Positions 9,619 to 60,584 of a stretch of DNA of 64,000 nt are shown here, in pieces. The number at the start of each line of letters is the position of its first letter. Position 1 is the first letter of the stretch. Source of the stretch: an uncultured Chlorobiaceae bacterium (GTDB lineage: Bacteria > Bacteroidota > Chlorobiia > Chlorobiales > Chlorobiaceae). The notes under the pieces were generated by a model. It made no database searches. It was not told the origin of the DNA and saw only the letters and a program-made list of their open reading frames with translations. Location of the stretch: assembly GCA_903843305.1 (NCBI GenBank), contig CAIMPI010000030.1:62001-126000 (forward strand), read 5' to 3'. The position numbers were made by a program, and so were the translations under genes.

Positions 9619-9861
9619 TTAGCGAATAAATTTGTTAATAAGATAAAGAATCAGACTGAGCAGTATGGAGAGCAGCACTGAAGTACCAATTGGAAAATAA
9701 AACCTGAAATTTTCCTTCTCAATCCTGATATCGAAAGGAAGATGGCCGAACCAGTTGAGCCAGTGCCATAATCCCGTTTTGTCAAAAGCAATAAGGAGCA
9801 AGCCGATAATAGCCATAAACAAGCCAGCCAGGAGAATTATTTTCCCAGCATCTGAAAACAC
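9619..9861 (-). CDS. DUF2905-type small membrane protein
   Basis: 80 aa; two TM segments around [23 protein letters not shown]. Confidence 0.8.
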
Positions 9862-9952
9862 GGTTTGGATATTTTTTAAAAGTTGCTAAATTAAGGCCAT
9901 CTTTTCATTTGACAAGATACGGATATTTGCGAATTTATTAAAGCGGCAGGAA

Positions 9953-10303
9953 ATGCATGTTTTCATAGTAATTGTAGGTTTGCTTGCATCGATTCTGCTG
10001 ATAGGCGTTATTTTGTTGCAGAGTCCAAAAAGTGGAAGCGGTCTGACCGGTGGGATGGCAAGCCTTGGTACTGTTCAGACTCTTGGTGTAAGGCGGACTG
10101 GTGACTTTTTAAGCAAGACAACAGCAATTCTGGCAGCTATTGTTATGCTTCTTTGTTTTATAGCCCAGTTTACTCTTCCCGGCAAAGAATCCTCAAAGGC
10201 ATCGTCGGAAAGCATTCTTCAGCATAATGTTCCACAACTGCCCGCAGTTCCAGGTAAAACCGTGCCTTCCGCGCCGTTGACGCCAGCACTGCCCGCAAAA
10301 TAA
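9953..10303 (+). CDS. secG: Preprotein translocase subunit SecG
   Basis: [15 protein letters not shown]...[18 protein letters not shown]. Confidence 0.92.
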
Positions 10304-10310
10304 TTACTCT

Positions 10311-10386
10311 GCACCCGTGGCTCAATCGGTAGAGCAACTGACTCTTAATCAGTGGGTTGGAGGTTCGAGTCCTCCCGGGTGCACCA
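10311..10386 (+). tRNA. tRNA-Lys (CTT), CCA encoded
   Basis: Acceptor GCACCCG/CGGGTGC-ACCA, anticodon loop CTCTTAA. Confidence 0.95.
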
Positions 10387-10430
10387 GCAAGACCCGCAAC
10401 TTCTCCAGACGAGGTTGCGGGTTTTTGCTT
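10387..10430 (+). terminator. Rho-independent terminator after tRNA-Lys
   Basis: ACCCGCAAC...GTTGCGGGTTTTT. Confidence 0.8.
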
Positions 10431-10507
10431 CTGACTCCTGCCTTTTTTTTGTATCGTGTCATGGAGAGTTTTTTTGTAACTATTTTAAAAAATAAACAGT
10501 TATAAAA

Positions 10508-11833
10508 TTGTTCAAAATTATCGATCGTTACATTCTCAAATCGCATATTGGGCCTTTCATTTTTGCATTTGTTACTCTCATTTTTGTACTGATACTTCAA
10601 TTCTTTTCTACTTTTGCTGACCGCTTTATCGGCAAGGGTATTGGATTTTCCTTTATTGTCGAACTCATTATGCTCCAGTCTGCATGGATGGTGGGACTGG
10701 CCGCGCCCATGGCGGTGCTTGTTTCTGTCGTTATGGCATTCGGCTCTCTGACTACTACCTCGGAAATGACTATTTTCAGGGCATCCGGTATATCTCTCTA
10801 CCGGCTTATGATCCCTGTTCTTCTTGCCGCTCTTATTCTGTCAGCGCTTGTCGAAAGGTTTAATAATGTTGTGCTTCCCCAAGCCAACTATCAGGCGAAA
10901 TCAATGATGGTCGATATCGCCAAATCGAAACCAGCCTTCGGATTAACCGAAAACGCTTTTTCAACTCTTGTGGATGGCTATTCCATCTTCATTCGTAAAT
11001 CTGATGATCGTTTAAAAGAGCTTCACGATATTGTCATTTATGATGTTACCAGGCCAGATTACAGTTCAATGGTGACTGCTGAAAAAGGACGCATTGATTT
11101 TACCGCTGATTATCAGTATCTCATTATGACGCTCTATAACGGCGAGATTTACCAGATACATCAACCGGACCACAAAAGTGTTCGCAGCATGACCTTCAGT
11201 AAACAACGTTTTGCTTTTGAGTCATCAGTTTCCGGTTTTTCACGCTCTTCAGGCAACAGGATGCGTTCAGGTGATAACGAACTTTCAGCAAACGAACTGC
11301 ATCTTATTGGCAACGAATTCAAGAAAAGGATTTTGGCATCAGAAAAACGTATCTGTATACCTCTTGAAAATATGGAGAAGCGTTTGATGCAAAACCACTC
11401 CGTTTTTTCAGGAACGTTGTCCATGGTCTCTGATTCGTCCAAGGCGATAACCAAAGCTGCGAGTTATGTTGACCGTCAACTTGCCCAACTTAATAGCGAA
11501 CTCACAAGCATTACATCTAACCAGAGCATGTACAACCGATACATGGCTGCCTATCATAAAAAATACGCACTTTCTCTCGCCTGTTTTGTCTTTGTTCTGG
11601 TCGGTGCTCCTCTTGGCGTTCTTGCTCGACGTGGCGGTTTCGGGGTGGGTGGGGGAATATCCCTTCTTTTTTTCGTTTTCTACTGGATGATCATGATTAC
11701 TGGCGAAAAAATTGCCGAACGAGGCCTGCTCGATCCCATGCTTTCAATGTGGCTGGCCAATATCGTGATGGCCTGTATTGGCATTGGGCTTGTTATCAGT
11801 CTGACTGGTGCGGTCTTCAATACATCACGATAA
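10508..11833 (+). CDS. LptF/LptG (YjgP/YjgQ) family permease
   Basis: 441 aa; N-terminal DRYILKSHIGPFIFAFVTLIFVLILQF, central periplasmic domain, C-terminal TM helices. TTG start. Confidence 0.88.
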   Translation: MFKIIDRYILKSHIGPFIFAFVTLIFVLILQFFSTFADRFIGKGIGFSFIVELIMLQSAWMVGLAAPMAVLVSVVMAFGSLTTTSEMTIFRASGISLYRLMIPVLLAALILSALVERFNNVVLPQANYQAKSMMVDIAKSKPAFGLTENAFSTLVDGYSIFIRKSDDRLKELHDIVIYDVTRPDYSSMVTAEKGRIDFTADYQYLIMTLYNGEIYQIHQPDHKSVRSMTFSKQRFAFESSVSGFSRSSGNRMRSGDNELSANELHLIGNEFKKRILASEKRICIPLENMEKRLMQNHSVFSGTLSMVSDSSKAITKAASYVDRQLAQLNSELTSITSNQSMYNRYMAAYHKKYALSLACFVFVLVGAPLGVLARRGGFGVGGGISLLFFVFYWMIMITGEKIAERGLLDPMLSMWLANIVMACIGIGLVISLTGAVFNTSR

Positions 11834-11857
11834 CGTGACTCATTGAATCGGTAAACA

Positions 11858-12250
11858 TCAGATGCAGTTCTTTTCTTCTCCTTTTTTCTTATGTCCGCAG
11901 CAGAGCGTTTTTTTTACTCCCTTTTCGTCAAGACAGACAAAGGTGATATTAGTACTGAATGCCAGAATTCTTTCCCCGGTCTCAATACTTTTTTTGTAGA
12001 CACGCACAGTGTACTCAATAGAAGTATTTCCGATTCTGCTTTTTTCCGTTACAAAACATAGGATGGAACCTCCCCGTATGCTTTTTTTGAATTCTACCTT
12101 ATCCAAACCAACAGTAACAAAGTTACATCCCGGATAATCCAGAGATACCGTGATATAGCTGATCTCATCAATCCATTTCAAAAGGTTTCCGCCAAAGAGA
12201 AAACCGTAATGATTAAGATGCTCCGGCAAAACAAGCTTATACGTTTCCAT
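11858..12250 (-). CDS. Hotdog-fold acyl-CoA thioesterase
   Basis: 130 aa; [23 protein letters not shown] motif. Confidence 0.85.
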
Positions 12251-12496
12251 ATCAAAAAAATGTAGGTTGGTGAAGGCATTATCTTCAGCAATTTATGGAT
12301 AAAAAGCCCTAACCAAAAACTTGGGTTTGGATGAAGATGAGGTCCTTATACGTTTCTCACACAACGCGATTAAAGCAGGTTGTGTTGCTTCATCTTCGTT
12401 TTTGTTGAAAGATCTTCTGCGTTGCATGAACTCAATCTTTTTCTTTACTTTCGATGTAACATAGATTTTTTTCGACAATATATAAACAATAGGACT

Positions 12497-13030
12497 ATGC
12501 CCGAAGAAACGAAAAGTGGGAGTTGCTGTTCGGGTGAAAAAGGTAATGGATATTCAGTCTCTGAAAAAAGGCTCGGCTGGCATGAGTACTTCATGAATGT
12601 CGCTCATCTTATTTCGCGCCGGGCGACCTGTACTCGGGCTCATATCGGCGCGGTCATCGTCAGGGAGAACAGTATTCTTTCGACTGGGTATAACGGTGCG
12701 CCATCCGGCCTCCCTCACTGTAACGACAGTAATTGCCTTATTTACCAGAGCAAACATCCTGATGGGACAGTCGAAGAGAACTGTGTCAACACGATTCATG
12801 CTGAAATCAATGCTATCGCGCAGGCGGCAAAACATGGTGTTTCAATCAAGGATTCCGATATCTATATTACTGCGAGTCCCTGTATTCATTGTCTTAAGGT
12901 GCTCATTAACGTAGGTATCAAAACTATCTACTACGATAAACCCTATAAAATAGAGCATATCGATGAACTTCTCAGGCTTTCCGGTATTCGGCTGGTACAG
13001 GTAAATTTAGCCAGTAACCTGAAGGAGTGA
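12497..13030 (+). CDS. dCMP deaminase / ComEB-like zinc deaminase
   Basis: [32 protein letters not shown]...[12 protein letters not shown]...[16 protein letters not shown]. Start moved from 12380 to MPEETK. Confidence 0.9.
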
Positions 13031-45528: not shown

Positions 45529-45641
45529 TTTTTTCTGTTATAGATCAGTTGGTGGAAAATGCGGGTGTATTGTTCTTATAGTGCCAGGAACGCTTTACCT
45601 CAAGAGTGCAACGTTAAACTTGGAAGTACCAAACAGAAAGT

Positions 45642-48044
45642 ATGCCCCTAAAAAAATCCGAACTCTACTCCTCCCTCTGGCAAAGTTGTGACGAACTGCG
45701 AGGCGGCATGGATGCCAGCCAGTATAAGGACTATGTCCTCGTCCTGCTTTTTGTGAAATATATTAGTGACAAATATGCCGGTGTGCTCTATGCTCCCATA
45801 ACCATTCCTGATGGTGCAAGCTTCAGGGATATGGTTGCCCTCAAAGGTAAAACCGACATTGGTGACCAGATCAACAAAAAAATTCTTGGGCCACTGGCGA
45901 GCGCCAACAAGCTCTCCGATATGCCGGACTTCAATGACGACACTAAGCTTGGCAGCGGCAAGGACAAGGTCGATACGCTCACCAACCTCATCGCTATTTT
46001 TGAGAATCCGGCGCTTGATTTCTCCAAAAATCGGGCAGAGGGGGACGATATTCTCGGCGATGCCTACGAGTATCTGATGCGCCACTTTGCCACCGAGAGT
46101 GGCAAAAGCAAAGGGCAGTTCTACACCCCTGCCGAGGTGAGCCGCATCATGGCCAGAATTGTCGGTATTCATGATGCCCCCACAACCAATAACACCACGG
46201 TGTACGATCCCACCTGCGGCTCGGGATCGCTCCTCCTGAAGGTGGGTGATGAAGCAACTGCTCGGGTAACGCTCTATGGTCAGGAAAAGGATGCCGCCAC
46301 CTCCGGCCTTGCCCGCATGAACATGATTCTGCACAACAACCCGACAGCAGAAATCAAGCAGGGTAACACACTGGCCAATCCCCTCTTTTTTGATGCCGAT
46401 CTGGGCGATCTCAAAACCTTTGATTATGTCGTCGCCAATCCGCCCTTCAGCGACAAGAGCTGGAGCAAGGGGATTGATCCCCTGAACGATACGCATGGCC
46501 GGTTCCGGCATTTCGGTGTTCCCCCTGCCAAACAGGGAGACTACGCCTACCTGCTCCACATTATCCGTTCACTTAAAAGCACCGGCAAGGGAGCCTGTAT
46601 TTTGCCGCACGGAGTGCTCTTTCGGGGTAATGCCGAGGGCGATATTCGTCGCAAACTTATCAGGATGGGCTACATCAAGGGTATCATCGGTCTTCCGGCC
46701 AACCTCTTTTACGGCACCGGTATCCCCGCCTGCATCATCGTCATCGACAAGAAAGATGCTCATGCCCGCAAAGGCATCTTCATGATCGACGCCAGCGCAG
46801 GATACATGAAGGATGGCCCCAAGAACCGCCTGCGCGACATGGATCTCCACAAGATTGTCGATGTTTTTACCCGGCAACTTGAGATCCCGAAATACTCCCG
46901 GATGGTCAGCATTGAGGAGATTGAGAAAAACGAGTTTAACCTGAACCTTCCGCGCTACATCGACAACCAGGAGGTTGAGGATATTCAGGATATCGAAGGC
47001 CACCTTCGCGGCGGGATTCCATGCGCCGATGTTGATGGGCTCCAGCCCTACTGGGAGGTCTGCCCGGAGCTTCGCCAGACACTCTTTACAGCTAACCGTC
47101 CCGGCTACCTTGATCTTGCTATCCCTAAGGGCACCATCAAGAGCGCCATCTACACCCACCCGGAGTTCGTCACCTTCATCGAGAGCATGAACACCCTCTT
47201 TGCCGAGTGGCAGGAGAGCGCCGCCCTCAGGCTCAAAAACCTTCAGCCCGCGTTTCATCCGAAGGCGTTGATTCAGGAGCTCTCCGAAGAGCTGCTCGCG
47301 CACTACACCGGCAAGCCGCTGATCGACAACTATCACGTCTACCAGCACCTGATGGACTACTGGAGAGAGACCATGCAGGACGACTGCTACCTCATCGCCG
47401 CCGATGGATGGAGAGCTGAAACCTATCGCGTGCTGGTGAAGAACAGCAAAGGGAAAGAGGTGGACAAAGGCTGGGCCTGCGATCTTGTGCCCAGGCAGCT
47501 TGTCATAGCTCGCTACTTTTCCGAAAAGCAGGATGCTATCACCCGGCTTGAGGCTGAACTCGAAAGCCTCACGGCACGCGTCACAGAACTTGAAGAGGAG
47601 CACGGCGGGGAGGAGGGTGTTTTTTCAGGATTGGACAAGGTGAACAAGGCCAATGTTACGGTGCGGTTGAAGGAGATTAAAGGGGAGAGGGAGAGCCAAG
47701 AAGAGTCTGATGTGCTTCGGGAGTGGCTGAAACTTTCAGGCGACGAAGCCGACCTGAAGAAGTCGCACAAGGAGGCTGAGGCCAACCTTGACCTGCTCGC
47801 TTATGCCAAATATCCCTCACTGAGCGAAGATGAGGTAAAAACGCTGGTTGTTGATGATAAATGGCTTGCTACAATTGCCGCTGCCATTCATGGTGAGATG
47901 GATCGCATCAGCCAGACCCTGACCCGCCGTGTGAAAGAGCTTGCCGAACGCTACGAAACGCACCTGCCCGAAGTGAACAGCAATGTCGCCGAGCTGGAGG
48001 CGAAGGTGAATGCACATCTTAAACGAATGGGGATGAACCTGTGA
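45642..48044 (+). CDS. hsdM: Type I restriction-modification methyltransferase subunit HsdM
   Basis: 800 aa; GQFYTPAEVSRIMARI, DPTCGSGSLLLK, VVANPPFSDKSW; coiled-coil C-terminal tail. Confidence 0.95.
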   Translation: MPLKKSELYSSLWQSCDELRGGMDASQYKDYVLVLLFVKYISDKYAGVLYAPITIPDGASFRDMVALKGKTDIGDQINKKILGPLASANKLSDMPDFNDDTKLGSGKDKVDTLTNLIAIFENPALDFSKNRAEGDDILGDAYEYLMRHFATESGKSKGQFYTPAEVSRIMARIVGIHDAPTTNNTTVYDPTCGSGSLLLKVGDEATARVTLYGQEKDAATSGLARMNMILHNNPTAEIKQGNTLANPLFFDADLGDLKTFDYVVANPPFSDKSWSKGIDPLNDTHGRFRHFGVPPAKQGDYAYLLHIIRSLKSTGKGACILPHGVLFRGNAEGDIRRKLIRMGYIKGIIGLPANLFYGTGIPACIIVIDKKDAHARKGIFMIDASAGYMKDGPKNRLRDMDLHKIVDVFTRQLEIPKYSRMVSIEEIEKNEFNLNLPRYIDNQEVEDIQDIEGHLRGGIPCADVDGLQPYWEVCPELRQTLFTANRPGYLDLAIPKGTIKSAIYTHPEFVTFIESMNTLFAEWQESAALRLKNLQPAFHPKALIQELSEELLAHYTGKPLIDNYHVYQHLMDYWRETMQDDCYLIAADGWRAETYRVLVKNSKGKEVDKGWACDLVPRQLVIARYFSEKQDAITRLEAELESLTARVTELEEEHGGEEGVFSGLDKVNKANVTVRLKEIKGERESQEESDVLREWLKLSGDEADLKKSHKEAEANLDLLAYAKYPSLSEDEVKTLVVDDKWLATIAAAIHGEMDRISQTLTRRVKELAERYETHLPEVNSNVAELEAKVNAHLKRMGMNL

Positions 48045-48112
48045 GCAGTTTAAAAAAATTCAAACCCCTCGAATTCGATAGTTTTAGAACCGGAAAGGAG
48101 GTGCGGGCATGA
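48041..48112 (+). CDS. Micro-ORF (23 aa) bridging hsdM and hsdS
   Basis: GTG at 48041 overlaps the hsdM stop; MSSLKKFKPLEFDSFRTGKEVRA; stop overlaps the hsdS ATG (ATGA). Carries the hsdS Shine-Dalgarno AAAGGAGG. Confidence 0.35.
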   Translation: MSSLKKFKPLEFDSFRTGKEVRA

Positions 48113-49392
48113 GCGCAGTGGTGAAACCCAGTTACAAGCTGACCGAGGTGGGGCTAATTCCTCAGGATTGGGCTGTGTCGAAGATTTATAATTGTTGTAG
48201 TAAAATAACTGATGGAACGCATGATACGCCAAGGTCTGTAGAATCAGGTATTCCTTTTCTTACAGCTATACATGTAAAAGATAACTTTATTGACTTTGCA
48301 TCAAGTCTCTTTGTAACTCCCACAGATCACGCAGTTATTTTTAGACGGTGCAACCCCGAGAAAAACGATGTATTAATGGTTAACATTGGCGCGGGTGTTG
48401 CTAGAACGGCTGTAGTGAATGTTGATTATGAGTTTAGTTTGAAAAACGTAGCTCTTCTCAAGCCTGCTTTTAAAAGAATTACAGGATCTTTTCTGAACTA
48501 CTCGCTTGCTCAGAGAAAAGCAAAAATTATAAAGGATTTGTCATTCGGTGGGGCACAGCCTTTTTTGTCACTGAAACAAATTGGTGAAATTTTAATTCCA
48601 CTTCCACCGTCCAGCACCGAACAAGAAGCTATAGCCGAAGCTTTGAGTGATGCGGATGCCCTCATTGAATCCCTTGAGCAACTCATCACCAAAAAACGCC
48701 AGATCAAACAAGGCGCCATGCAGGAACTGCTCACCGGCAAAAAACGCCTGCCGGGTTTCAGTGGGGAGTGGGAGGTGAAGAGGTTGGGTGACCTTTTCAG
48801 TTTTAGCGGCGGTTATTCAGCTTCACGAGACCAGCTATCTTCCGAAGGTCATTGCTACCTTCACTATGGGGACATTCACGGATCGTCAAAAATGATCATT
48901 GATGCAAAAGATGATTACCAAAACATCCCAAAGCTTAATATTCCACTGAAGCGAATCGCGTCCAATTCGCTGCTTGAAGATGGTGATGTCGTATTCGTCG
49001 ATGCCTCAGAAGATGACGAAGGCACAAGCAAGTACATCGTGGTCGTGAATAAGGATGATATCCCATTTATAGCAGGGCTACACACCATTGTCGCCAAGAG
49101 CAAGACATCCGAACTGACCCATGAGTATCGGCGTTACTGCTTTCAAACAGCAGACATTCACCAGCAATTCCTGTTTTTTGCTGTTGGTACAAAAGTTTCA
49201 GGTATCAGTAAATCGAACATCCCGAAACTGACACTGCCAGTTCCTCCTTACCCTGAACAAGCCGCTATCGCTGAGATACTGATTGATATGGACACCGAGA
49301 TTGAAGTGCTGGAAGTAAAGCTTGAAAAAGCTCGCAATATCAAGCATGGCATGATGCACAACTTGTTAACTGGAAAAATCCGACTGGTATGA
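48109..49392 (+). CDS. hsdS: Type I restriction-modification specificity subunit HsdS
   Basis: Two TRDs with conserved repeats EQEAIAEALSDADALIESLEQLITKKRQIKQGAMQELLTGK and EQAAIAEILIDMDTEIEVLEVKLEKARNIKHGMMHNLLTGK. Confidence 0.95.
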   Translation: MSAVVKPSYKLTEVGLIPQDWAVSKIYNCCSKITDGTHDTPRSVESGIPFLTAIHVKDNFIDFASSLFVTPTDHAVIFRRCNPEKNDVLMVNIGAGVARTAVVNVDYEFSLKNVALLKPAFKRITGSFLNYSLAQRKAKIIKDLSFGGAQPFLSLKQIGEILIPLPPSSTEQEAIAEALSDADALIESLEQLITKKRQIKQGAMQELLTGKKRLPGFSGEWEVKRLGDLFSFSGGYSASRDQLSSEGHCYLHYGDIHGSSKMIIDAKDDYQNIPKLNIPLKRIASNSLLEDGDVVFVDASEDDEGTSKYIVVVNKDDIPFIAGLHTIVAKSKTSELTHEYRRYCFQTADIHQQFLFFAVGTKVSGISKSNIPKLTLPVPPYPEQAAIAEILIDMDTEIEVLEVKLEKARNIKHGMMHNLLTGKIRLV

Positions 49393-51977
49393 CCGATGAC
49401 ACAAAGACTTGGCTGAATTTACAACACCCTTGGATTCAAGAAGCTGCTTATCGAATTCTTTCTAACGGGAGAATTACCGATCAAGATATAGCAGATTTCG
49501 TGAGTTTGATTAAAACGCCACAAGTTGAAACCAATAACACAACGCAAGCGCCTCGCACTTATCCTGATTTTGGTGTTGGCTTAGCGTCAACAAATCAACT
49601 CAGGCTGGTATCGCTTGGAGATATTATTGGAATCGATAATCTTGCCCCGCGAAATCCTCTATCTTTCGGCAGTGGCAATCTCACTGTTATTTATGGTAAC
49701 AATGGATCAGGTAAATCTGGTTATGCAAGAATTTTAAAAAAAGCATGCGGAAAAGTTGGGGCAGCTGAATTGAAGCCCAATGTCTATAAGCCGACCCCTA
49801 TCCAACGTCAATGCACCATTACTCTCAATATCAATGAGGTAAATACTTCCTATGATTGGCTTGCTAATGCTGATCCTATTCCTGAATTAAGCACTGTGGA
49901 CATTTATGATACGATGAGTGGTCGTATTTACTTAGACGGTGAAACAGAAGTAGCCTATATTCCAGCAGAATTAGTTTTGTTTTCCGATATAGTTGATGTG
50001 TGTAAAAAAGTCGAAAAAGCTCTACTTACTGAACAGTCAAGCCTAAGAAAAATTTTACCTGAGTTACCCAGAATATTTATTGGAACAACGGTTGCAAGTG
50101 AATACACATCAGTTCGTTCAACTACTGGCTCAGAGCAATTAACCCAAATTTTTCCATGGTCTGAAAATGATGAGCGCAGGCTCAATGAGCTGAATGAACG
50201 TTTAAAAATGACTGATCCAGCCTCAGAGGCTGTAAAACGGCGTGCTGTAAAAACTCAGATCAATAGCTTGAAATCTAAGCTCAATGACGCCATTTTATTG
50301 ATTGATGTCAACGCATGTATACGGATTCAGAAACTGGTGAACGATGCCAATACGGCTCGTCAAACGGCTACAGAAGCTGCCCTTGCAATGACAGCATCTT
50401 CGAAATTGGATGGCGTGTCCACAGAGACTTGGCGCACTCTTTGGGATGCGGCTCGAACATATTCTATATCAAAAGCATACCCTGATAAATCTTATCCAAA
50501 TATTGATGAAGGTGCTCAGTGTGTTCTATGCCATCAAATACTTGATGATAATGCGAAGGATCGTTTAACAGATTTCAATAACTATGTCAATGGTACATTG
50601 GAATCTGCTGCGAAAACCGCTGAATTATTAGCGGCTGAATCTATTAGCGCCTTACCGGAAACGCCTGCTGATGAGGTATTGCAAACGGCTGCTCTTGCTG
50701 GAGAATTGACTGACGATATGCTCAGTAAACTAAAATCCGCATGGAAGAAGATTAAAATTTTTGTTGATGAGTTACGTGCTGATCCGCTGAATGAATCCCT
50801 CAGTAGCCATTCTCCTGATGTGAATAATTTGATTTCTGAATTTACAGCGTTATCTGATGCAGCAGAAGCTTCAGCGATTATCTTTGATGGCGATACTGAA
50901 ATTATCGATAGGAACACTATTTCAACAGAAATCCTTGAACTTGAAGCAAAAAAGTGGACATCTCAGCAATCTGAAGCGATTAATGCAGAGATTGCCCGTT
51001 TAAAACAATATGACAAATTTACTGATTGGTGCAGGAAAACAACTACTACTGGAATATCTCGGAAAGCAGGAGAATTATCTCAAACACTCATTACTGATGG
51101 TTATGTCGGGCGCTTCAATGAAGAGCTGCAAAAGCTATGTGCTTCGAACATAAGCGTGGAATTGATAAAGACTCGAGTCGCCAATGGTATGGTTAAGCAT
51201 CGCATCCAACTCAAGTCATCAAACTCTTCAGTAACACGTACAGGCGATATCCTCAGTGAAGGAGAGACTCGGATTGTATCTTTGGCGGCTTTCCTTGCCG
51301 ATGTTACAGGGAAACGGTCAAATGCTCCGTTTGTTTTTGATGATCCTATTTCTTCATTAGATCATGAATATGAATGGGCAGTTGCAACTCGTCTTGCAGC
51401 ATTAGCAGGGGATCGTCAAGTAATCGTGTTTACTCATCGGTTATCACTATATGGTGGACTTGAAGATGCAGCTAAAAAGTTTGGAGAAGAATGGAAGAGC
51501 GATCATTTGAAGCAATTGTGTATTGAGTCATTTTCTGGATCGTGCGGACATCAAGTTGATGATGCCATATGGTCTGTTAATACAAAGAAAGCTAACAATA
51601 TCTTAAACGCCAGACTTTGTTCAGCGAAAAGTGCTTTCGATGCTGGCGATTCTGCAACTTACAGGATAGTCTCTCAAAGTATCTGCTCTGATTTCCGAAA
51701 ACTGTTGGAACGAACGATTGAAGAGGATCTAATGGCAAAAGTGGTTTTAAGACATCGACGAAGCGTGACGACAGAAAATAGGATCAAACTACTTGCAAAA
51801 ATATCACAAGAAGACTGTGTTTATTTTGATGATCTCATGACCAAATATTCTTGCTATGAACATAGTCAGTCAACTGAGGTTCCGCTAACGCTACCAGATG
51901 AACCGAGTCTTCGTGCTGATGTTGAAGGGCTTAAGCGATGGCGTGAATCTTTTACTACAAGAGTTCAATCAACTTAA
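49389..51977 (+). CDS. SMC/ABC-type AAA_13 ATPase, RloC/PrrC-like candidate
   Basis: 862 aa; Walker A VIYGNNGSGKSGYARILKKAC, CVLC zinc-hook-like motif, ABC signature LSEGETR, Walker B FVFDDPISSLDH, H-loop FTH. ATGA overlap with hsdS. Confidence 0.85.
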   Translation: MTDDTKTWLNLQHPWIQEAAYRILSNGRITDQDIADFVSLIKTPQVETNNTTQAPRTYPDFGVGLASTNQLRLVSLGDIIGIDNLAPRNPLSFGSGNLTVIYGNNGSGKSGYARILKKACGKVGAAELKPNVYKPTPIQRQCTITLNINEVNTSYDWLANADPIPELSTVDIYDTMSGRIYLDGETEVAYIPAELVLFSDIVDVCKKVEKALLTEQSSLRKILPELPRIFIGTTVASEYTSVRSTTGSEQLTQIFPWSENDERRLNELNERLKMTDPASEAVKRRAVKTQINSLKSKLNDAILLIDVNACIRIQKLVNDANTARQTATEAALAMTASSKLDGVSTETWRTLWDAARTYSISKAYPDKSYPNIDEGAQCVLCHQILDDNAKDRLTDFNNYVNGTLESAAKTAELLAAESISALPETPADEVLQTAALAGELTDDMLSKLKSAWKKIKIFVDELRADPLNESLSSHSPDVNNLISEFTALSDAAEASAIIFDGDTEIIDRNTISTEILELEAKKWTSQQSEAINAEIARLKQYDKFTDWCRKTTTTGISRKAGELSQTLITDGYVGRFNEELQKLCASNISVELIKTRVANGMVKHRIQLKSSNSSVTRTGDILSEGETRIVSLAAFLADVTGKRSNAPFVFDDPISSLDHEYEWAVATRLAALAGDRQVIVFTHRLSLYGGLEDAAKKFGEEWKSDHLKQLCIESFSGSCGHQVDDAIWSVNTKKANNILNARLCSAKSAFDAGDSATYRIVSQSICSDFRKLLERTIEEDLMAKVVLRHRRSVTTENRIKLLAKISQEDCVYFDDLMTKYSCYEHSQSTEVPLTLPDEPSLRADVEGLKRWRESFTTRVQST

Positions 51978-51987
51978 CGATGAATTA

Positions 51988-53940
51988 ATGAAAATCTCCA
52001 CCATTCTTGACCACATTGACAGCGGGCACATGGCGCTTCCTGAGTTTCAGAGGGGTTATGTCTGGAATCGCGATCAGGTTCGTGGGCTTTTTACTTCACT
52101 TTATCGCCGTCATCCAGTAGGAGGGCTTCTGGTTTGGGCAACAGAATCCAAAACGGCTCACCATCGGGGTGACAGCCCTCTTGCAGCTGGGGTCGTGAAA
52201 CTTCTTCTTGATGGGCAACAGCGGATGACATCACTTTACGGTGTTATGAGAGGTAATGCTCCTGAGTTTTTCGATGGTAATAAGCAGGCTTTTACCGGTT
52301 TGCAGTTTCATCTTGAAACAGAGAGCTTTGCCTTTTATCAACCATTAAAAATGAGTGGCGATCCTCTATGGGTTGATGTTACCGAGCTTATGCTTAAGGG
52401 TACTTCCGGATTAGGTGGATTTATCAAACGTTTGAACTCACTCCCTGCTTTATCTGAAAGAGTTGGTGAGTATATCGGCCGACTCAGTCAATTGCTTGCT
52501 ATCACTGATATTGAGCTACATATCGAAGAGGTTACTGGCGCGGATAAAACTCTGGATGTGGTTGTTGATATTTTTAATATGGTCAACAGCGGGGGGACTA
52601 AGCTTTCAAAAGGTGACTTGGCTCTTGCAAAGATTTGCGCCGATTGGCCGGATGCGCGAAACACCATGAAAGCCAAACTCAATGAATGGGCTAAAGTGGA
52701 TTTCCATTTTAATCTTGATTGGCTTTTGCGTTCAGTTAACACCGTATTGACGGGTGAGGCAAAGTTCCAGTTCCTTCATGAGAAAAGTGCGATAGAAATT
52801 CAGGATGCTCTTAAACGAGCCATTAAACATATAGATACCTGCTTGAATCTGATCAGTGGTAGGTTGGGGCTGGATCATGACCAGGTATTCTTTGGACGTT
52901 TCGGGGTTCCGGTTATGGTGCGCTATCTGGATCAACGTTCTGGTCCTATTGATGTAATAGAGCGTGACAAACTTTTGTTCTGGTTTGTTCAGGCCGGAAT
53001 GTGGGGTCGTTTTTCTGGCTCAACCGAGTCTTTCATCGATCAGGATCTTGCGGTTCTGGAAGGTCCCGATGGTGGTTTAGATAAACTACTGGAGCAATTG
53101 CGTCTCTGGCATGGCGGTTTGCGGGTCGAACCGGGACATTTTACAGGTTGGAGCTTAGGTGCACGTTTTTATCCCATTTTGTATCTCCTAACGCGTATGG
53201 GTGAGGCCAATGACTGGGGAACAGGGTTGCCTTTAAAAGCTAACATGCTCGGTAAAATGAATAGTCTTGAGGTACATCATATTTTTCCAAAAGCCCAGCT
53301 TTATAAACAAAACTTTATGCGATCAGATGTCAATGCGCTTGCGAACTTTTGTTTTCTGACCAAAGACACGAATCTGGGCATCAGTGATCGGTTGCCTGAA
53401 CAGTATTTTCCTGAGATTGAAAAAAAACATCCTGGGGCACTTGCATCACAATGGATTCCGATGGATCAAGAATTATGGAAAATTGAAAACTTCAGCAACT
53501 TCCTTGAAGCCAGACAGGCTTTACTATCAGATGAAATGAATCGCAGGATGGAAGATTTGTTGCACGGAGATCTTCTTTGCTTTAAAGGACATAGTGCAGT
53601 TGTGCTTCCACCAGCAGTAATTGAAGGTGGCATAACCAGCAATGAGGAGGAAGAACAATTGGAAGGACTTAATACATGGATGGCTGAACATGAGTTGCCG
53701 GTTGGTCAGTTGTCTTATGAGCTTACTGATCCAAATACGGGCGAGCAAAAAGCTGTTATTGATCTTGCATGGCCCCAGGGTATACAGGAAGAACTAACCC
53801 AGCCGATAGCGTTGCTACTTAATAAAACCGCTGAGACATTGGCCATTGCCAGCCAGGCGGGGTTCCTTTGTTATATATCCATTGAAGAGTTAAAAAAGTA
53901 TGTCAAAACAAAAATCTTAACGGATGAAGCTACCTTTTGA
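51988..53940 (+). CDS. GmrSD-type (DUF262 + HNH/DUF1524) nuclease
   Basis: LPEFQRGYVWNRDQVRGLFTSLYRRHPVGGLLVW and LLDGQQRMTSLYG (DUF262); SLEVHHIFPKAQLYK HNH core. Confidence 0.9.
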   Translation: MKISTILDHIDSGHMALPEFQRGYVWNRDQVRGLFTSLYRRHPVGGLLVWATESKTAHHRGDSPLAAGVVKLLLDGQQRMTSLYGVMRGNAPEFFDGNKQAFTGLQFHLETESFAFYQPLKMSGDPLWVDVTELMLKGTSGLGGFIKRLNSLPALSERVGEYIGRLSQLLAITDIELHIEEVTGADKTLDVVVDIFNMVNSGGTKLSKGDLALAKICADWPDARNTMKAKLNEWAKVDFHFNLDWLLRSVNTVLTGEAKFQFLHEKSAIEIQDALKRAIKHIDTCLNLISGRLGLDHDQVFFGRFGVPVMVRYLDQRSGPIDVIERDKLLFWFVQAGMWGRFSGSTESFIDQDLAVLEGPDGGLDKLLEQLRLWHGGLRVEPGHFTGWSLGARFYPILYLLTRMGEANDWGTGLPLKANMLGKMNSLEVHHIFPKAQLYKQNFMRSDVNALANFCFLTKDTNLGISDRLPEQYFPEIEKKHPGALASQWIPMDQELWKIENFSNFLEARQALLSDEMNRRMEDLLHGDLLCFKGHSAVVLPPAVIEGGITSNEEEEQLEGLNTWMAEHELPVGQLSYELTDPNTGEQKAVIDLAWPQGIQEELTQPIALLLNKTAETLAIASQAGFLCYISIEELKKYVKTKILTDEATF

Positions 53941-54022
53941 TTGTTAAAAGTCCAGTGACTTGTTCAACATCCACTGTAATATTGAAAAGGTTTAATGGTT
54001 GTCAAAATAATATTCAACCCCA

Positions 54023-55540
54023 ATGAAACCGATCCGCATTTTCATCAGCAGCGTTCAAAAAGAGTTCTCAACTGAACGGGCAGTACTGCGTGATTATTTG
54101 CGTGGTGATGCCCTGATGCGTCGGTTTTTTGAGCCTTTTTTGTTTGAGGATGTTCCTGCTGCTGACCGCAGGGCTGATGAACTTTATCTCGCTGAAGTTG
54201 AACAGTGCGATATCTATCTTGGATTGTTCGGTAACGAGTATGGATATGAGGATGCTGATGGTCTTTCTCCAACAGAACGTGAATTTGATGCGGCAACCTT
54301 GCACCACAAAACAAGGCTGATTTTTGTGAAAGGAGGGGAGGCTGAGACCCGGCATCCCAAAATCCGGAAGTTGATTCAGCGAGCGGGCAGTGAGCTGATA
54401 CGCAGGCGGTTTGTGACCAGTGCCGAACTGCTTGTTGGTGTTTATGCTGCTCTTGTGCAGACGCTTGAAGATTTGGAGCTGATTCGTACCGGGCCGTTTG
54501 ATGCGGCAGTATGCCCTGACGCATCGCTGGCTGACCTTGATGCAGAGGCGATGATTCGCTTTATCCGCAGGGCGCGACTGTTGCACGGCTTTCCGCTTCA
54601 GGAAGATGCATCCGCTTTTGAGCTGTTGACCCATCTCAATTTGCTGAACAAGGGTCGTCCTTCTCATGCTGCTGTGCTGTTGTTCGGCTTCTCTCCCCAA
54701 CGTTTTCTTATCTCTTCGGAGATCAAGTGTGCCCATTTTCATGGCACAAGGGTGGCCAAGCCGATACCATCATATCAGGTATACAAGGGCCGGGCCTTTG
54801 AACTTGTCGATCAGGCAGTTGACTTTGTTCTCTCGAAAATTGACCTTGCTGTTGGTACTCGTGCTGAAAGTGCAGAGGTTCCTGTCACCTACGAAATCCC
54901 TCCTGAAGTGGTGCGGGAGGCAATTGTCAATGCTGTTGCGCATCGCGATTATACCAGCACCGGCAGTGTTCAGGTTATGTTGTTTGCTGATCGACTGGAG
55001 GTGTGGAACCCCGGTACGCTTTCGCCATCGCTGACCCTTGAAAAGCTCAGAAAACCTCATGGATCGTTTCCTGCCAACCCGCTTATGGCGGAGTCACTCT
55101 ATCTTGCCAAATACATTGAACGAATGGGCACGGGAACGGGTGACATGATCACTTTTTGCGGCAACGCAGGTCTGCGTGAACCGGAGTTCAGCCTGACGGA
55201 CGGGTTTGTAGTCACTATCTGGAGAAAGGAGAGAGCTTTGTCTGGTGCAGCAAAAGAGAATATTTCGTTGCCCACCGGGGAAGTCAGCAGGGTTCATGTT
55301 TCATCTAAACATTTTATTGGTAAAACGTCGGTCAAAACGCCGGTCAAAACGCCGGTCAAAACGCCCGATCGGATTCTTGAACTGCTTGTGGCAACCCCTG
55401 ATCTGACACTGGCGGAGGTCGCTAAAGCAATCGATAAATCATTGAGAGCGGTGGAGCGAGCAAGTGCAAAATTAGTGAAAGAGGGGCGCTTGCGCTATGT
55501 TGGTCCAGCAAAGGGCGGCCATTGGGAGGTATTGAGCTGA
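54023..55540 (+). CDS. DUF4062 + COG2865/Schlafen-type ATP-binding domain + winged helix protein
   Basis: MKPIRIFISSVQKEFSTERAVLRDYLRG (DUF4062); EAIVNAVAHRDYTSTGSVQVMLFADRLEVWNPG (HATPase_c_4); VKTPVKTPVKTP linker; C-terminal wHTH. Confidence 0.87.
   Translation: MKPIRIFISSVQKEFSTERAVLRDYLRGDALMRRFFEPFLFEDVPAADRRADELYLAEVEQCDIYLGLFGNEYGYEDADGLSPTEREFDAATLHHKTRLIFVKGGEAETRHPKIRKLIQRAGSELIRRRFVTSAELLVGVYAALVQTLEDLELIRTGPFDAAVCPDASLADLDAEAMIRFIRRARLLHGFPLQEDASAFELLTHLNLLNKGRPSHAAVLLFGFSPQRFLISSEIKCAHFHGTRVAKPIPSYQVYKGRAFELVDQAVDFVLSKIDLAVGTRAESAEVPVTYEIPPEVVREAIVNAVAHRDYTSTGSVQVMLFADRLEVWNPGTLSPSLTLEKLRKPHGSFPANPLMAESLYLAKYIERMGTGTGDMITFCGNAGLREPEFSLTDGFVVTIWRKERALSGAAKENISLPTGEVSRVHVSSKHFIGKTSVKTPVKTPVKTPDRILELLVATPDLTLAEVAKAIDKSLRAVERASAKLVKEGRLRYVGPAKGGHWEVLS
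55320..55366 (+). repeat. 12-bp tandem repeat within the DUF4062 gene
   Basis: Three perfect units GTCAAAACGCC(G) preceded by a degenerate GTAAAACGTCG; encodes (VKTP)3. Confidence 0.9.
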
Positions 55541-55681
55541 GACACAGTTTTTTTGCAACTTTTTTTTTCTGACAGCGTTGGATCTGCTTGAAGGTAATGA
55601 AGAATCATCTTCGAACTGTTCTACTGATTGCTTCCTTGTGCTAATAATTTGAATTGAGCTTTACCGGATTTTCGGTAGACT

Positions 55682-56113
55682 TTATTCCCAGGGGTCAAAA
55701 AGTGTTGAGCCAGAACCGCTCATGTCGGCTGTGTTCCTGGTGACCACGATCAACCCGTTTGTTATAGCCGTCGCAGCAATGAGCGCATCAACGACGGGGA
55801 GTGATCGACCTTTTTTCTCCGATTCGCCAAGCATTGTGCCCCAACAACGTGCAACTTCAGTGGTGATGCCAAAAATCCGGCCATTGAACCGTTCCATTAA
55901 TTCATCAGCAAGCCACGCCTGCAATTGCATTTTTTTTCTGCCTTCCTCCAGCTTTGAAATTCCTTTTTCAACTTCACCAAGCGTGATGACACACAGATAC
56001 AGGTTCTCTTCATCCTGACCATCAATCCACTCCATAACTTTCGGTGACGGCTCTGCTCTGATCAGTTCAGAGATCACGCATGTATCCAACAGGTAACCTT
56101 CCCCTGACTTCAC
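55682..56113 (-). CDS. PIN-domain toxin (VapC-type)
   Basis: YLLDTCVISELIRAEPSPKVMEWI; TLGEVEKGISKLEEGRKK; LPVVDALIAATAI. Confidence 0.92.
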   Translation of the reverse strand: MKSGEGYLLDTCVISELIRAEPSPKVMEWIDGQDEENLYLCVITLGEVEKGISKLEEGRKKMQLQAWLADELMERFNGRIFGITTEVARCWGTMLGESEKKGRSLPVVDALIAATAITNGLIVVTRNTADMSGSGSTLFDPWE

Positions 56114-56370
56114 AGAATCACCTCACTTCGGCCAGAATCTTTTGATCGTTTAAGTTCTATCCCTGAATTTCGGAGCGGTGAGTTATGAAAAAAACTTGAA
56201 AGGGGCTCACCCGGCTTGCGAACATTGATTGCCTTGTTGTATTCGTCAAAAGAGATAACCACTGCTGAAGGCTTGCCATGCAGGGTAATAGCCTGTGGCC
56301 CCTCGTTGAGGGCGTTGCGGACCACTTCGCTCAAATGATTTTTTGCATGTTGCAGTTGCCATGTTTTCAT
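56110..56370 (-). CDS. Phd/YefM-type antitoxin
   Basis: MKTWQLQHAKNHLSEVVRNALNEGPQAITLHGKPSAVVISFDEYNK; GGGGAG RBS; ATGA overlap with the PIN gene. Confidence 0.88.
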   Translation of the reverse strand: MKTWQLQHAKNHLSEVVRNALNEGPQAITLHGKPSAVVISFDEYNKAINVRKPGEPLSSFFHNSPLRNSGIELKRSKDSGRSEVIL

Positions 56371-56646
56371 CTTCTTCTCCCCATCGGTTACTGTATGATC
56401 GTTCTGGCTATTATAGACAGAATATAGGAAAAGCTGGCAGGTTCTTGACAACATTTCATTCTCGCCAGCTCCTTTTGCGATGCTGGCAACTTTGAACGCG
56501 AAATCCGGAAGCGCGCTATAAGCTGTTATGGAGTGAGACAAAATCAATATATTCTGAAGGAAGGGAATTACTCGCCTATTGCAGAGCGACTTGAGCTGCC
56601 AATGTTAAGGGTATAAAGAAAAAATCAGGCATATACACACAAAAGC

Positions 56647-56739
56647 ATGATGACCGAGAGTATCGAAACCCAGATCCGCCAGGTGCTTGAACGCCACAAA
56701 GCTATTCGTCTGGCGTTGTTGCAGGAGGTAACCGCTTGA
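56647..56739 (+). pseudogene. Short ORF resembling a truncated minimal nucleotidyltransferase N-terminus, overlapping the hsdR start
   Basis: MMTESIETQIRQVLERHKAIRLALLQEVTA*; matches the typical MNT N-terminus up to the point where LFGS(L/R)A is expected. Confidence 0.4.
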
Positions 56740-59700
56740 CCATTATCGGCAACTCTGAACGCGAAACGCAGAATCGCATCATCGCCTTGTTTCGGGACGA
56801 GCTTGACTATCGCTATCTCGGCGACTGGAGTGACCGCGAGGGGAACAGCACTATTGAGGACGGTATGCTCACGGCATACCTTTTACGGAACGGCTATACT
56901 CCTGTGCAGGTTACAAAAGCCATCCATGAACTTTGCATTGAGGCGAATAATCCGAACAGAACTCTTTACGACAACAACAGAAAAGTCTACAGCCTGCTTC
57001 ACTACGGTGTTCCGGTAAGAGCGGCAGTGGGTGAGAATACTGAGACGATCGGACTGATCAACCACGAGCACCCGGAACTGAATGATTTTGCCATTGCCGA
57101 AGAGGTGACGGTTTGCGGCATGCACGATAAACGGCCCGATATTGTGCTCTATGTCAACGGGATTGCGGTTGGTGTGCTGGAGTTGAAGAACAGCAGGGTA
57201 TCGCTTGGTGACGGGATTCGGCAAAGTCTTGTCAACCAGCGTTCGGAGTTTATTGCGCCGTTCTTTTCAACGGTGCAGTTCATTTTTGCCGGAAATGATT
57301 CCGAAGGGCTGAAGTATGGTACGGTTGGGACGGAGGAGAAATATTTTCTTCAATGGAAAGAGGATGAAGAGGATAACTCCCGCTTCAAGCTCGACAAGTA
57401 TTTGCTCAAGATCTGCGAAAAGTCCCGCTTTATAGAGCTGCTGCATGATTTTGTTGTTTTTGATGGCGGTAAGAAAAAGCTTCCGAGGGTGCACCAGTAT
57501 TTTGGCGTGAAGGCGGCGCAGCGCCAGGTTGAGGCGTTCAGGGGCGGTATTATCTGGCATACGCAGGGGAGCGGCAAGAGCATGGTGATGGTGTTGCTGG
57601 CCCGCTGGATTCTGGAGAACAAGTCTGCCGCCCGTGTGGTGATTGTTACCGATCGCGATGAGCTGGACAAGCAGATTGCCGGGGTTTTTACCGATGCAGG
57701 AGAATCGATCAGACGCACAACCAGTGGCAGTGACCTTATGAAGCAGCTCGGCCAGCCTTCACCGCGTCTGCTCTGCTCGCTGGTTCACAAGTTCGGCAGA
57801 AAAGGGGTGGATAATTTTGAGGAGTTCATTAAAGAGCTTGAATTGCAGCCATGCCATACCGTGGGTGATGTTTTCGTCTTTGTTGATGAGTGTCACCGGA
57901 CGCAGAGCGGCAAACTGCATCGAACCATGAAAGCGTTGATGCCCAATGCGGTGTTTATTGGGTTTACCGGAACGCCTCTTTTGAAAAAAGATGCTGCAAC
58001 CACCCTTGAGGTTTTCGGGAGCTACATTCACACCTACAAGTTTAACGAAGCCGTTGAAGACAGGGTGGTGCTTGATCTGGTTTATGAGGCTCGGGATATT
58101 GACCAGCAGCTTGGATCGAAGGAGAAAATCGACGCATGGTTCGATGCCAAGACGAGGGGATTGAACGAGTGGCAGAAGGCCGCCCTTCGAGAGCAGTGGG
58201 GTACCATGCAGCATGTGCTCAGCTCCCGATCCCGTATGAATCGGGTAGTCAACGATATTGTGTTTGATTTCAGTGTAAAACCTCGCCTGAGTAACCATCG
58301 TGGTAACGCCATTCTGGTGGCGTCGAGCATTTATGAGGCCTGCAAGTATTTCGAAATCTTTCAGAAGTCGGTTTTCAGGGGCAGGTGCGCGGTCATCACC
58401 TCCTACAATCCGCAAACGAGAGACATCACGACGGAAGACACCGGCGCCAACACGGAGACGGATAAAGAGTTTATCTACAATACCTATAAAGCACTGCTGC
58501 TGCATGTTGATGCGACGGCAGGCAAGTCAAAAACAGAGAGTTACGAGGACAATGCCAAGATGCTTTTCAGGGAGCAGCCAGCGAACATGAAACTGCTGAT
58601 TGTGGTCGATAAACTGCTGACGGGTTTTGATGCGCCGAGTTGCACTTACCTCTATATCGATAAAAGCATGCAGGATCATGGCCTCTTTCAGGCTATCTGC
58701 CGCACCAACCGCCTTGACGGTGATGACAAGGAGTTCGGGTATATCGTTGATTATAAAGATCTCTTCAACAAAGTTAATGATGCGCTGAAGGTCTATACCG
58801 TCTATACATCGGAGCTGGATAACAGTGATACGATCGGCGGTGAATCCGACATCCTGATGAAAGACCGGCTTGCAAAAGGGCGTGAAAGGCTTGACAATGC
58901 ATTGGAAGCGCTTGCACTGATCTGTGAACCGGTTGAACCGCCGAAAGGCGAGCTTCAGCATATCCATTATTTCTGCGGGAACAGTGAGATTGCGGAGGAG
59001 CTTTCGGATCGGGAAACGTTGCGTGCAGCCCTCTACAAGGGAACGGTCATGCTGGTAAGGGCGTACGGCGGTATTGCCGGTGAGCTTGATGCGGCAGGGT
59101 ACAGTGCCGCTGATGTCCAGCGCATCAAAAGAGATATCGACCGCTTTCTCAAGCTGCGTGAAATTATCCGCCATGCCAGTGGTGAAAGCATCGACCTGAA
59201 GGCTTATGAGGCCGATATGCGCCATCTCATCGATACCTATATTGAAGCCGATGAGCCGAGAAAGATCTCTCCTTTTGATGATATGCCGCTTTTGGAGTTG
59301 ATCGTGAAATCCGGCATTGCAGAAGCGATCAAAAATATGCCTGAAGGAATCAAAAGCAGTAAGGATGCGATTGCTGAAACCATCGAGAACAATGTGCGAA
59401 GCAAGATCATCAAAGATCACCTGAACGATCCGGCATTTTATGACCGCATGTCAACCTTGCTTGATGAGCTTATTGCTTCCCGTCACCAGAAAGCTATTGA
59501 TTACGAAGCGTATCTCAAGCGGATCGCCGAACTGGCAAACCGGGTTGCATCAGGCCGTACTGAAGAGACGCCAGCGCAACTGAATACTCCGGGTCGCCGG
59601 GCTCTGTACAACAACTTGAAGCTTGACCGTGTTGGTTGTGTTGACCTTGATTTTTCTGAGGATTCACCGAACTATAAAGGGTTTCAGGATAAAAAATTGC

Positions 59701-59867
59701 ATCTGGTGATGAGCATTGATGAAGCTGTCAGGCGAGTAAGTCCGGACGGGTGGCGTGGAGTTAAACCGAAGGAGAATGTGATCAAAAACGCCCTGTTTGA
59801 GCTGTTGCAGGATGAAGAGGTCGTAGAGAGGCTCTTTCTTGTCATCGAACGGCAAAAAGAGTATTGA
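56736..59867 (+). CDS. hsdR: Type I restriction endonuclease subunit HsdR
   Basis: 1043 aa; KRPDIVLYVNGIAVGVLELKNS nuclease motif, HTQGSGKSMVMV Walker A, VFVDECHRTQSG, GFTGTPLL. TTG start with AGGAGG. Confidence 0.95.
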   Translation: MTIIGNSERETQNRIIALFRDELDYRYLGDWSDREGNSTIEDGMLTAYLLRNGYTPVQVTKAIHELCIEANNPNRTLYDNNRKVYSLLHYGVPVRAAVGENTETIGLINHEHPELNDFAIAEEVTVCGMHDKRPDIVLYVNGIAVGVLELKNSRVSLGDGIRQSLVNQRSEFIAPFFSTVQFIFAGNDSEGLKYGTVGTEEKYFLQWKEDEEDNSRFKLDKYLLKICEKSRFIELLHDFVVFDGGKKKLPRVHQYFGVKAAQRQVEAFRGGIIWHTQGSGKSMVMVLLARWILENKSAARVVIVTDRDELDKQIAGVFTDAGESIRRTTSGSDLMKQLGQPSPRLLCSLVHKFGRKGVDNFEEFIKELELQPCHTVGDVFVFVDECHRTQSGKLHRTMKALMPNAVFIGFTGTPLLKKDAATTLEVFGSYIHTYKFNEAVEDRVVLDLVYEARDIDQQLGSKEKIDAWFDAKTRGLNEWQKAALREQWGTMQHVLSSRSRMNRVVNDIVFDFSVKPRLSNHRGNAILVASSIYEACKYFEIFQKSVFRGRCAVITSYNPQTRDITTEDTGANTETDKEFIYNTYKALLLHVDATAGKSKTESYEDNAKMLFREQPANMKLLIVVDKLLTGFDAPSCTYLYIDKSMQDHGLFQAICRTNRLDGDDKEFGYIVDYKDLFNKVNDALKVYTVYTSELDNSDTIGGESDILMKDRLAKGRERLDNALEALALICEPVEPPKGELQHIHYFCGNSEIAEELSDRETLRAALYKGTVMLVRAYGGIAGELDAAGYSAADVQRIKRDIDRFLKLREIIRHASGESIDLKAYEADMRHLIDTYIEADEPRKISPFDDMPLLELIVKSGIAEAIKNMPEGIKSSKDAIAETIENNVRSKIIKDHLNDPAFYDRMSTLLDELIASRHQKAIDYEAYLKRIAELANRVASGRTEETPAQLNTPGRRALYNNLKLDRVGCVDLDFSEDSPNYKGFQDKKLHLVMSIDEAVRRVSPDGWRGVKPKENVIKNALFELLQDEEVVERLFLVIERQKEY

Positions 59868-60584
59868 ATGGTTACCAGGTTTGCTCTCGGGGACATCGAG
59901 GTTGATGTGGTGCTGAAGGAGATCAAAAACATCCATCTGAGTGTTTATCCGCCAACAGGCCGTGTGTGTATTTCGGCTCCATCCGGCATGAATATCGACA
60001 CCATCCGGCTCTATGCCATGTCACGGCTTGGCTGGATAAAAAAGCAGCAGCGCAAGTTGCGGGGGCAGGAACGTGAAACTCCACGGGAGTACCTGAACAG
60101 GGAGAGCCATTATCTCTGGGGAAAGCGTTACCTGCTGAAAATTGTTGAAAGGGAAGCTCCGCCCTTTGTTGATTTGCAGCACAGCACCATACTTCTGCAT
60201 ATCCGGGCAGAGGCAAGTCAGGAGAAAAAACAGTCGGTTCTTGATGAATGGTATCGGAAGCAGTTGAAGGTTGCCATACCTGAACTCATTTCGTCATGGG
60301 AGAAAAGGATTGGTGTTCGTGTTCAGGAGTTCGGCATCAAGAAAATGAAAACGAAATGGGGCACCTGTAACCCCGAAGCTTGCCGTATTTGGGTAAACCT
60401 TGAACTCGCCAAAAAGCCGAAAGAGTGTCTCGAATATATTGTTGTGCATGAAATGGTTCATATTATGGAACGTCACCACAATGAGCGGTTCGTTTCACTC
60501 ATGGATAACGTTATGCCTCAATGGCGTTCGAGGCGTGATGATTTGAACAGGTTGCCGGTTAAGCATGAAGAGTGGAGGTATTAA
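59868..60584 (+). CDS. YgjP-like (M48/DUF45) metallopeptidase
   Basis: KTKWGTCN; YIVVHEMVHIMERHHNERF HExxH motif; starts directly after the hsdR stop. Confidence 0.9.
   Translation: MVTRFALGDIEVDVVLKEIKNIHLSVYPPTGRVCISAPSGMNIDTIRLYAMSRLGWIKKQQRKLRGQERETPREYLNRESHYLWGKRYLLKIVEREAPPFVDLQHSTILLHIRAEASQEKKQSVLDEWYRKQLKVAIPELISSWEKRIGVRVQEFGIKKMKTKWGTCNPEACRIWVNLELAKKPKECLEYIVVHEMVHIMERHHNERFVSLMDNVMPQWRSRRDDLNRLPVKHEEWRY

Follow-up and report, generated by a model that had tools for sequence, protein, structure and literature searches.

The subject of this report is a type I restriction-modification (R-M) locus in an uncultured green sulfur bacterium of the Chlorobiaceae, with a genome of 2.59 Mb, lying within a stretch of 64,000 nucleotides (the window; positions 62,001 to 126,000 of contig CAIMPI010000030.1, assembly GCA_903843305.1). 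The locus consists of a type I R-M frame occupying a fixed place on the chromosome, with a cassette directly behind hsdS that encodes an RloC-like ABC-ATPase and a GmrSD-family enzyme and that is replaced by other genes in close relatives. We judged it rather probable that the defence genes gathered here are plug-in modules of this frame and not the parts of a hard-wired cascade. Gene identities were assigned from the open reading frame (ORF) listing together with Pfam, PADLOC and NCBIfam, which agreed on most of the families named in the original prediction, a reading of the letters of the window alone; ORFs were called by length, which may have led to errors in small genes and start positions. 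The R-M set is complete, with HsdM, HsdS carrying two target-recognition domains, and HsdR carrying a nuclease and a SWI2/SNF2 motor. The features are as follows.

45642..48044, plus strand: hsdM, type I N6-adenine methyltransferase subunit, 800 aa (Pfam N6_Mtase 1e-100, HsdM_N 3e-13; PADLOC MTase_I 1251 bits)
48109..49392, plus strand: hsdS, specificity subunit with two target-recognition domains (Pfam Methylase_S, two stretches)
49396..54010, plus strand: exchangeable cassette (RloC-like gene and GmrSD gene), 4615 bp (blastn block borders, base composition)
49389..51977, plus strand: RloC-like ABC-ATPase, 862 aa, predicted HEPN-type tRNase (PADLOC PDC-S06 E=5e-293; AAA_13 3e-13)
51988..53940, plus strand: predicted GmrSD-family type IV restriction enzyme, BrxU-like, 650 aa (GmrSD_N 7e-24; PADLOC HEC-05)
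54023..55540, plus strand: DUF4062 (predicted TIR-like NADase domain) with HATPase_c_4 and a winged helix-turn-helix (DUF4062 6e-21, HATPase_c_4 2e-16, HTH_24 5e-5)
55682..56113, minus strand: PIN-domain (VapC-like) toxin (PIN 3e-14; VapC models)
56110..56370, minus strand: Phd/YefM antitoxin, ATG start (PhdYeFM 3e-14)
56736..59867, plus strand: hsdR, type I endonuclease/translocase subunit, TTG start (TIGR00348 2e-151, HSDR_N, SWI2_SNF2)
59868..60584, plus strand: ygjP-like (SprT/M48-type) metallopeptidase (YgjP-like 2e-59, SprT-like 1.6e-6)

The cassette was delimited by blastn comparison with relatives of the same genus, which are draft genomes. DNA identity of 80-95% extended over hsdM, parts of hsdS, the DUF4062 gene, the PIN/Phd pair and hsdR-ygjP, and no genus relative gave a DNA alignment with 49396-54010. 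The aligned blocks stopped at 49392-49395 and restarted at 54011-54044 in relatives keeping the DUF4062 start, placing the borders flush with the hsdS stop and the DUF4062 start. The G+C content of the cassette was 0.421, against 0.54 for hsdM, 0.51 for the DUF4062 gene and 0.50 for hsdR-ygjP. At the same junction, seven relatives carried other genes: an AAA_21 gene in G114 and G213, an FRG-domain pair in G280, a GmrSD_N plus AAA_15/DUF3696 set in G307, a SIR2 gene in G225, and an OLD-type gene in G094 and G181. The combination of RloC-like and GmrSD genes was absent from the matching place in every genus relative compared. The DUF4062 gene and the PIN/Phd pair (85-96% identity for the pair) occupy this site in several relatives as well, and are part of the chromosomal locus and not of the cassette. 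Orthologues within the genus showed 86-99% identity for HsdM and 92-97% for the DUF4062 protein. Within hsdS, the blocks 48619-48791 and 49255-49395 were shared and 48060-48618 was mostly unshared, the first half of the gene thus varying among relatives.

The variety of this slot was also apparent in about two dozen loci with an hsdM-hsdS ... hsdR-ygjP frame, or a rearranged form of it. These were gathered via HsdR queries, and a second sample, described below, via RloC-like queries; the counts given here describe those samples, not all bacteria. The slot held AAA_21 ATPases, AAA_15/OLD-TOPRIM, SIR2_2, FRG and SLFN_AlbA_2 proteins, a PD-(D/E)XK-type nuclease (REase-ARP), DUF4268, GmrSD types and unknowns, and was empty in three loci (L179, L192 and L195). 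GmrSD-type genes occupied it in the window and in L178, L180, L181 and L197, and an RloC-like gene in the window only. The frame itself was not constant in order: hsdR-ygjP lay upstream of hsdM in L162/L198, L165/L197, L174/L202 and L182/L201, between the same ABC-F/DNA-alkylation genes and rluD, and therefore the R-M frame has itself been rearranged within the genus. In the genus relatives L198 (7583-8437; Pfam scan), L199, L200 and L201, a KilA-N protein of 284 aa was located between hsdM and hsdS, where the window has just the 64-bp gap.

The closest published case is the RRDM island of enteropathogenic Escherichia coli E2348/69, with the order rptR-hsdM-hsdS-DarTG2-hsdR-M48 peptidase and a proven anti-phage effect (PMC12255303, 2025); its authors regarded the hsdS-hsdR gap as a potential recombination hotspot (PMC12255303). 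In both, a type I frame encloses a defence module in the hsdS-hsdR gap, and hsdR is followed by a metallopeptidase. The window is the richer example, its cargo being the RloC-like and GmrSD genes plus the resident DUF4062 gene and PIN/Phd pair. In contrast to the RRDM island, the gene before hsdM is CutA1, not rptR (the upstream genes being ABC-F, DNA_alkylation and CutA1), and no TAGCTA operator site was present in 45529-45660. A Halorhodospira locus (L023:10001-19172) with the order hsdM-hsdS-RloC-like-DarT-macro-hsdR-ygjP is a mix of the RRDM island and an R-M-coupled RloC, and bridges the two arrangements.

The RloC-like protein was examined against the published definition of RloC, which comprises ABC motifs, a CXXC zinc hook and an R-X3-E-X36-52-H anticodon nuclease triad (Davidov and Kaufmann, PMC2610378). 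It contains a Walker A motif at 103-110, a zinc hook CVLC at 378-381 and an ABC signature LSEGE at 622. The residues K109, G625, D651, D652, D658 and H683 (Walker, signature, Walker B/D-loop and switch His) were present in all 78 homologues, as were the zinc-hook cysteines C378-x2-C381, inside the ATPase insert. The C-terminal triad R770-x3-E774-x50-H825 was conserved in 74, 78 and 77 of the 78 homologues, respectively. Every sequence feature of the RloC definition was thus found, which supported the RloC-like identity given in the original prediction, and the protein is a putative tRNA anticodon nuclease. The ABC motifs and zinc hook are shared with the RloC of G. kaustophilus and A. baylyi, and the triad spacer of 50 is within the published 36-52. 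The triad His is preceded by Glu in the window protein, whereas it is preceded by Ser in published RloC. The PADLOC class, PDC-S06, is a candidate class. The C-terminal 171 residues were modelled as a helical bundle (predicted local distance difference test score, pLDDT, 84), and a PDB sequence search with this region returned noise only.

We next consider the position of the gene. The ATGA overlap of hsdS with the RloC-like gene and the 10 bp from its stop to the GmrSD ATG at 51988 confirmed the spacing originally noted. The tight block proposed from hsdM onwards held for hsdS-RloC-GmrSD but not for hsdM, which is separated from hsdS by a gap of 64 bp. To see the neighbourhoods of such genes elsewhere, 86 loci around RloC-like genes were compiled; relatives in genome contigs were missed by a single-protein scan and found by an alignment query. 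Apart from the window, ten loci (L014, L023, L038, L039, L043, L067, L074, L081, L090 and L093) have an RloC-like gene directly behind hsdS; two of them, L038 and L039, are identical copies in one genome. These ten loci span several phyla and two R-M subtypes, and in the nine of them that were measured the hsdS-RloC gap ranges from -11 to +46 bp. In all but L074, where hsdS is visible and the contig ends before hsdR, the gene lies between hsdS and hsdR, as in the window. The interval from the RloC-like gene to hsdR is empty in L038, L067, L081, L090 and L093, and holds RhuM in L014 and L043 and DarT with a macro-domain protein in L023. A compact hsdM-hsdS-RloC-hsdR-ygjP operon was found in Dyella (L038) and Burkholderiaceae (L081). 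On a 78-row tree of RloC-like proteins, the placement behind hsdS changed 10 times, at least nine of the changes being forced by well supported branches, and therefore the hsdS-RloC arrangement was gained or lost many times. The link of an anticodon-nuclease-type protein with a type I R-M operon, as originally claimed, was thus borne out by the ten further loci.

This position is that of PrrC. The order in prrABCD is hsdM-hsdS-prrC-hsdR (PMC3014915), so that EcoprrI/PrrC and the window share the order hsdM-hsdS-ABC-ATPase nuclease-hsdR, and the two nucleases share the C-terminal R-x3-E...H triad. Unlike prrABCD, the window has other genes ahead of hsdR, and its protein has 862 aa and a zinc hook, whereas PrrC has 341-416 aa and is hookless; the PADLOC PrrC match to the window protein reached E=1e-4 only. 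The nuclease domains of RloC and PrrC have been classed as HEPN and described from R-M operons, in some cases accompanied by RhuM or Doc toxins (PMC3710099), and the rloC/E/G genes of C. jejuni are inserts in hsd loci. In contrast to the window gene, tight behind hsdS, published RloC was described as rarely R-M-linked (8/72; PMC2610378). The repeated finding of RloC-like genes in PrrC's place links two nuclease stories, as PrrC is R-M-controlled and RloC is thought to be R-M-independent.

It is unlikely, in our judgement, that the locus is a plain defence island, in which a tolerant site accumulated unrelated and functionally unconnected systems by chance, the hsdS-RloC adjacency included. The patchwork of contents at the same site and the many other settings of RloC-like genes are as such an island would have them, as is the lack of clustering of the slot label on the tree. 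Yet chance gathering does not sit well with an RloC-like gene immediately behind hsdS, the ends mostly overlapping or nearly touching, in ten other loci of two R-M subtypes and several phyla, nor with the position being that of PrrC, a nuclease known to be kept inactive by its own R-M enzyme. Rather doubtful, too, is that the protein works only as known RloC, self-regulated by the zinc hook and DNA breaks, with the R-M operon merely a promoter donor. The zinc hook in 78/78 homologues accords with this, as do the RloC proteins of A. baylyi and G. kaustophilus, described as internally controlled and not R-M-linked (PMC2610378, PMC3874168); self-regulation alone, however, leaves the repeated choice of the slot behind hsdS, over other operons, unexplained.

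The tiered coupling of R-M and nuclease has been published before (PMC3710099; PrrC-EcoprrI; PMC2610378), and the original prediction was that the locus could be a tiered system in which a phage escaping one layer triggers the next. As one integrated system, selected as a unit, HsdMSR, the RloC-like protein, and then GmrSD, DUF4062 and PIN/Phd would each be triggered by failure of the one before. The tight hsdS-RloC-GmrSD spacing would suit such a system, PrrC is a precedent for a two-tier link, the slot holds GmrSD types at several type I loci, and in Marinobacter (L024) two other GmrSD-type genes follow an RloC-like gene. However, the full set was seen once and the cassette is missing from genus relatives; the window's GmrSD type and PIN/Phd occurred in none of the 86 RloC-like loci. 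In addition, an opposite-strand toxin-antitoxin (TA) pair separates hsdR from the rest, and a promoter-like site, of a kind present at chance level in number, precedes the DUF4062 gene. By the standard of refutation set with the original prediction, the full combination thus fails, whereas the recurring hsdS-RloC pair does not, and we regard a single integrated system as highly improbable.

In the plug-in reading that we favour, HsdMSR would methylate host DNA and cut DNA lacking this methylation. Translation of the RloC-like gene would be coupled to that of hsdS, in a position like that of PrrC in prrABCD. Its product would be latent while the restriction complex is intact; once the complex is disturbed, by anti-restriction proteins of a phage or by DNA breaks, it would begin to cleave tRNA as an anticodon nuclease. 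GmrSD would independently cut modified-base DNA escaping HsdR, the DUF4062 protein (by NAD depletion) and PIN/Phd would serve as resident back-ups of the same site, and the modules would complement one another. Several observations weigh against this reading. On the RloC-like tree, the clustering of the slot label did not exceed that of shuffled labels, a result compatible with mobility and with functional pairing alike. The family also occurs beside BREX, SbcCD and type III R-M, and alone, and therefore coupling to HsdMS is not required by the family. Finally, a Foldseek search of the RloC-like C-terminus against the PDB did not reach significance for HEPN (best E 0.13); many of the top 50 entries are HEPN folds, none of them significant, and they suggest rather than show a HEPN fold for the modelled bundle. 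In L061, L063, L066 and L087, a BrxL-like gene precedes the RloC-like gene and SbcD/SbcC genes follow it, and Pfam identified an Eco57I-type methylase, PglZ and BrxL in L066; the family therefore also serves as a BREX companion.

The second cassette gene encodes a protein with the GmrSD motifs DGQQR at 75-79 and, as HNH motif, HHIFPK..N at 430, conserved in homologues of 41-67% identity; Pfam GmrSD_C did not match it. The longest ORF begins at 51898, but translation most likely starts from the ATG at 51988. The model of the protein (mean pLDDT 78) matched BrxU, a type IV enzyme of the GmrSD family (7p9k; E=3.5e-12, 615 columns). Like BrxU (PMC8565348, cited in PMC12255303), it is a single-chain DUF262 plus HNH enzyme adjoining a methylation-based system. 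The partner is type I R-M in the window and BREX for BrxU; identity is about 20%, and the window enzyme has an extra C-terminal domain after residue 550. Relatives of the protein adjoin a DISARM operon in Nostoc; in Paracoccus, their neighbours are helicases and an N-6 methylase.

The DUF4062 gene had been labelled DUF4062/Schlafen. The Schlafen part did not stand, because the protein carries HATPase_c_4 and HTH_24 besides DUF4062 and Pfam found no SLFN_AlbA_2 domain; a genuine SLFN_AlbA_2 protein sits in the slot of a relative (L158). DUF4062 has been described as a TIR-like NADase acting by abortive infection (2026 preprint, PMC13174449). The window protein aligned with the Swarozyc protein KpSwz (10wc) over residues 5-149, and nothing aligned past 149. 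Its Glu85 lies opposite KpSwz chain residue 82, which is the catalytic E97 if the chain starts at residue 16, as the construct name suggests; Glu85 is thus a candidate catalytic residue of a putative NADase. The DUF4062 domain, with its aligned Glu, is common to both proteins (PMC13174449), but the window protein has HATPase_c_4 and HTH_24 where KpSwz has a portal-binding AUX domain, and because of this different auxiliary part it was not filed as Swarozyc. The N-terminal NADase part is lost or altered in G307, G225, G209, G330 and G280, and kept in the window and G114.

The PIN/Phd pair, previously called a divergent TA pair, is divergent relative to hsdR but convergent with the DUF4062 gene. 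The 86-aa ATG form of the antitoxin equals the called ORF in the relatives L165 and L197; a TTG ORF to 56547 was judged an over-extension. Because the minus-strand pair diverges from hsdR, hsdR-ygjP is probably a separate transcript. Sigma-70 and terminator scans of the locus gave as many promoters as shuffles (18 vs 18.0), and therefore no transcription units were claimed. The hsdR start region, GGAGGTAACCGCTTG, is conserved in several relatives, as is the GGAGGT ribosome site of the TTG start. A possible hidden gene, a 30-aa ORF that overlaps the start of hsdR (~56643-56738), was dropped because it was not seen in the upstream sequence of most relatives. Membership in MADS, raised by weak mad2/mad3/mad5 matches, was also rejected, the NCBIfam scores of 40 and 19 bits falling far short of the cut-offs (720 and 400).

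The ygjP gene follows hsdR with no gap. Among the matches listed for the phylum sample, at least 62 of 67 HsdR genes, of both subtypes, had ygjP directly downstream on the same strand; G022, counted among the five without it, does have YgjP (locus L195). A second type I hsdR in the same genome (G000 contig C43, ~9721-12848; 34% identical) is followed by ygjP as well. We found no relevant description of a role of YgjP with HsdR in the papers searched for YgjP and restriction; the SprT-like match suggests that YgjP may be a protease whose substrates are proteins bound to DNA, for instance spent HsdR complexes. We tentatively raise the possibility, though on balance we lean against it, that hsdM-hsdS-RloC-hsdR-YgjP forms a defence module of five genes that recurs as such; a zinc-hook tRNase would be kept latent by the type I restriction complex, YgjP would clear or degrade DNA-bound HsdR, and the gap behind RloC/hsdS would be a general docking site for further effectors.

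Taken together, these data present the type I R-M operon as a fixed frame for exchangeable defence modules behind hsdS, seen at base resolution among close relatives. What is added here is the exact cassette exchange in those relatives, the repeated arrangement of RloC in the PrrC slot, and the HsdR-YgjP count, which makes YgjP a near-constant, unexplained partner of HsdR and its role a directly testable question. The five-gene module, if real, would be a PrrC-like system built on RloC, across several phyla.

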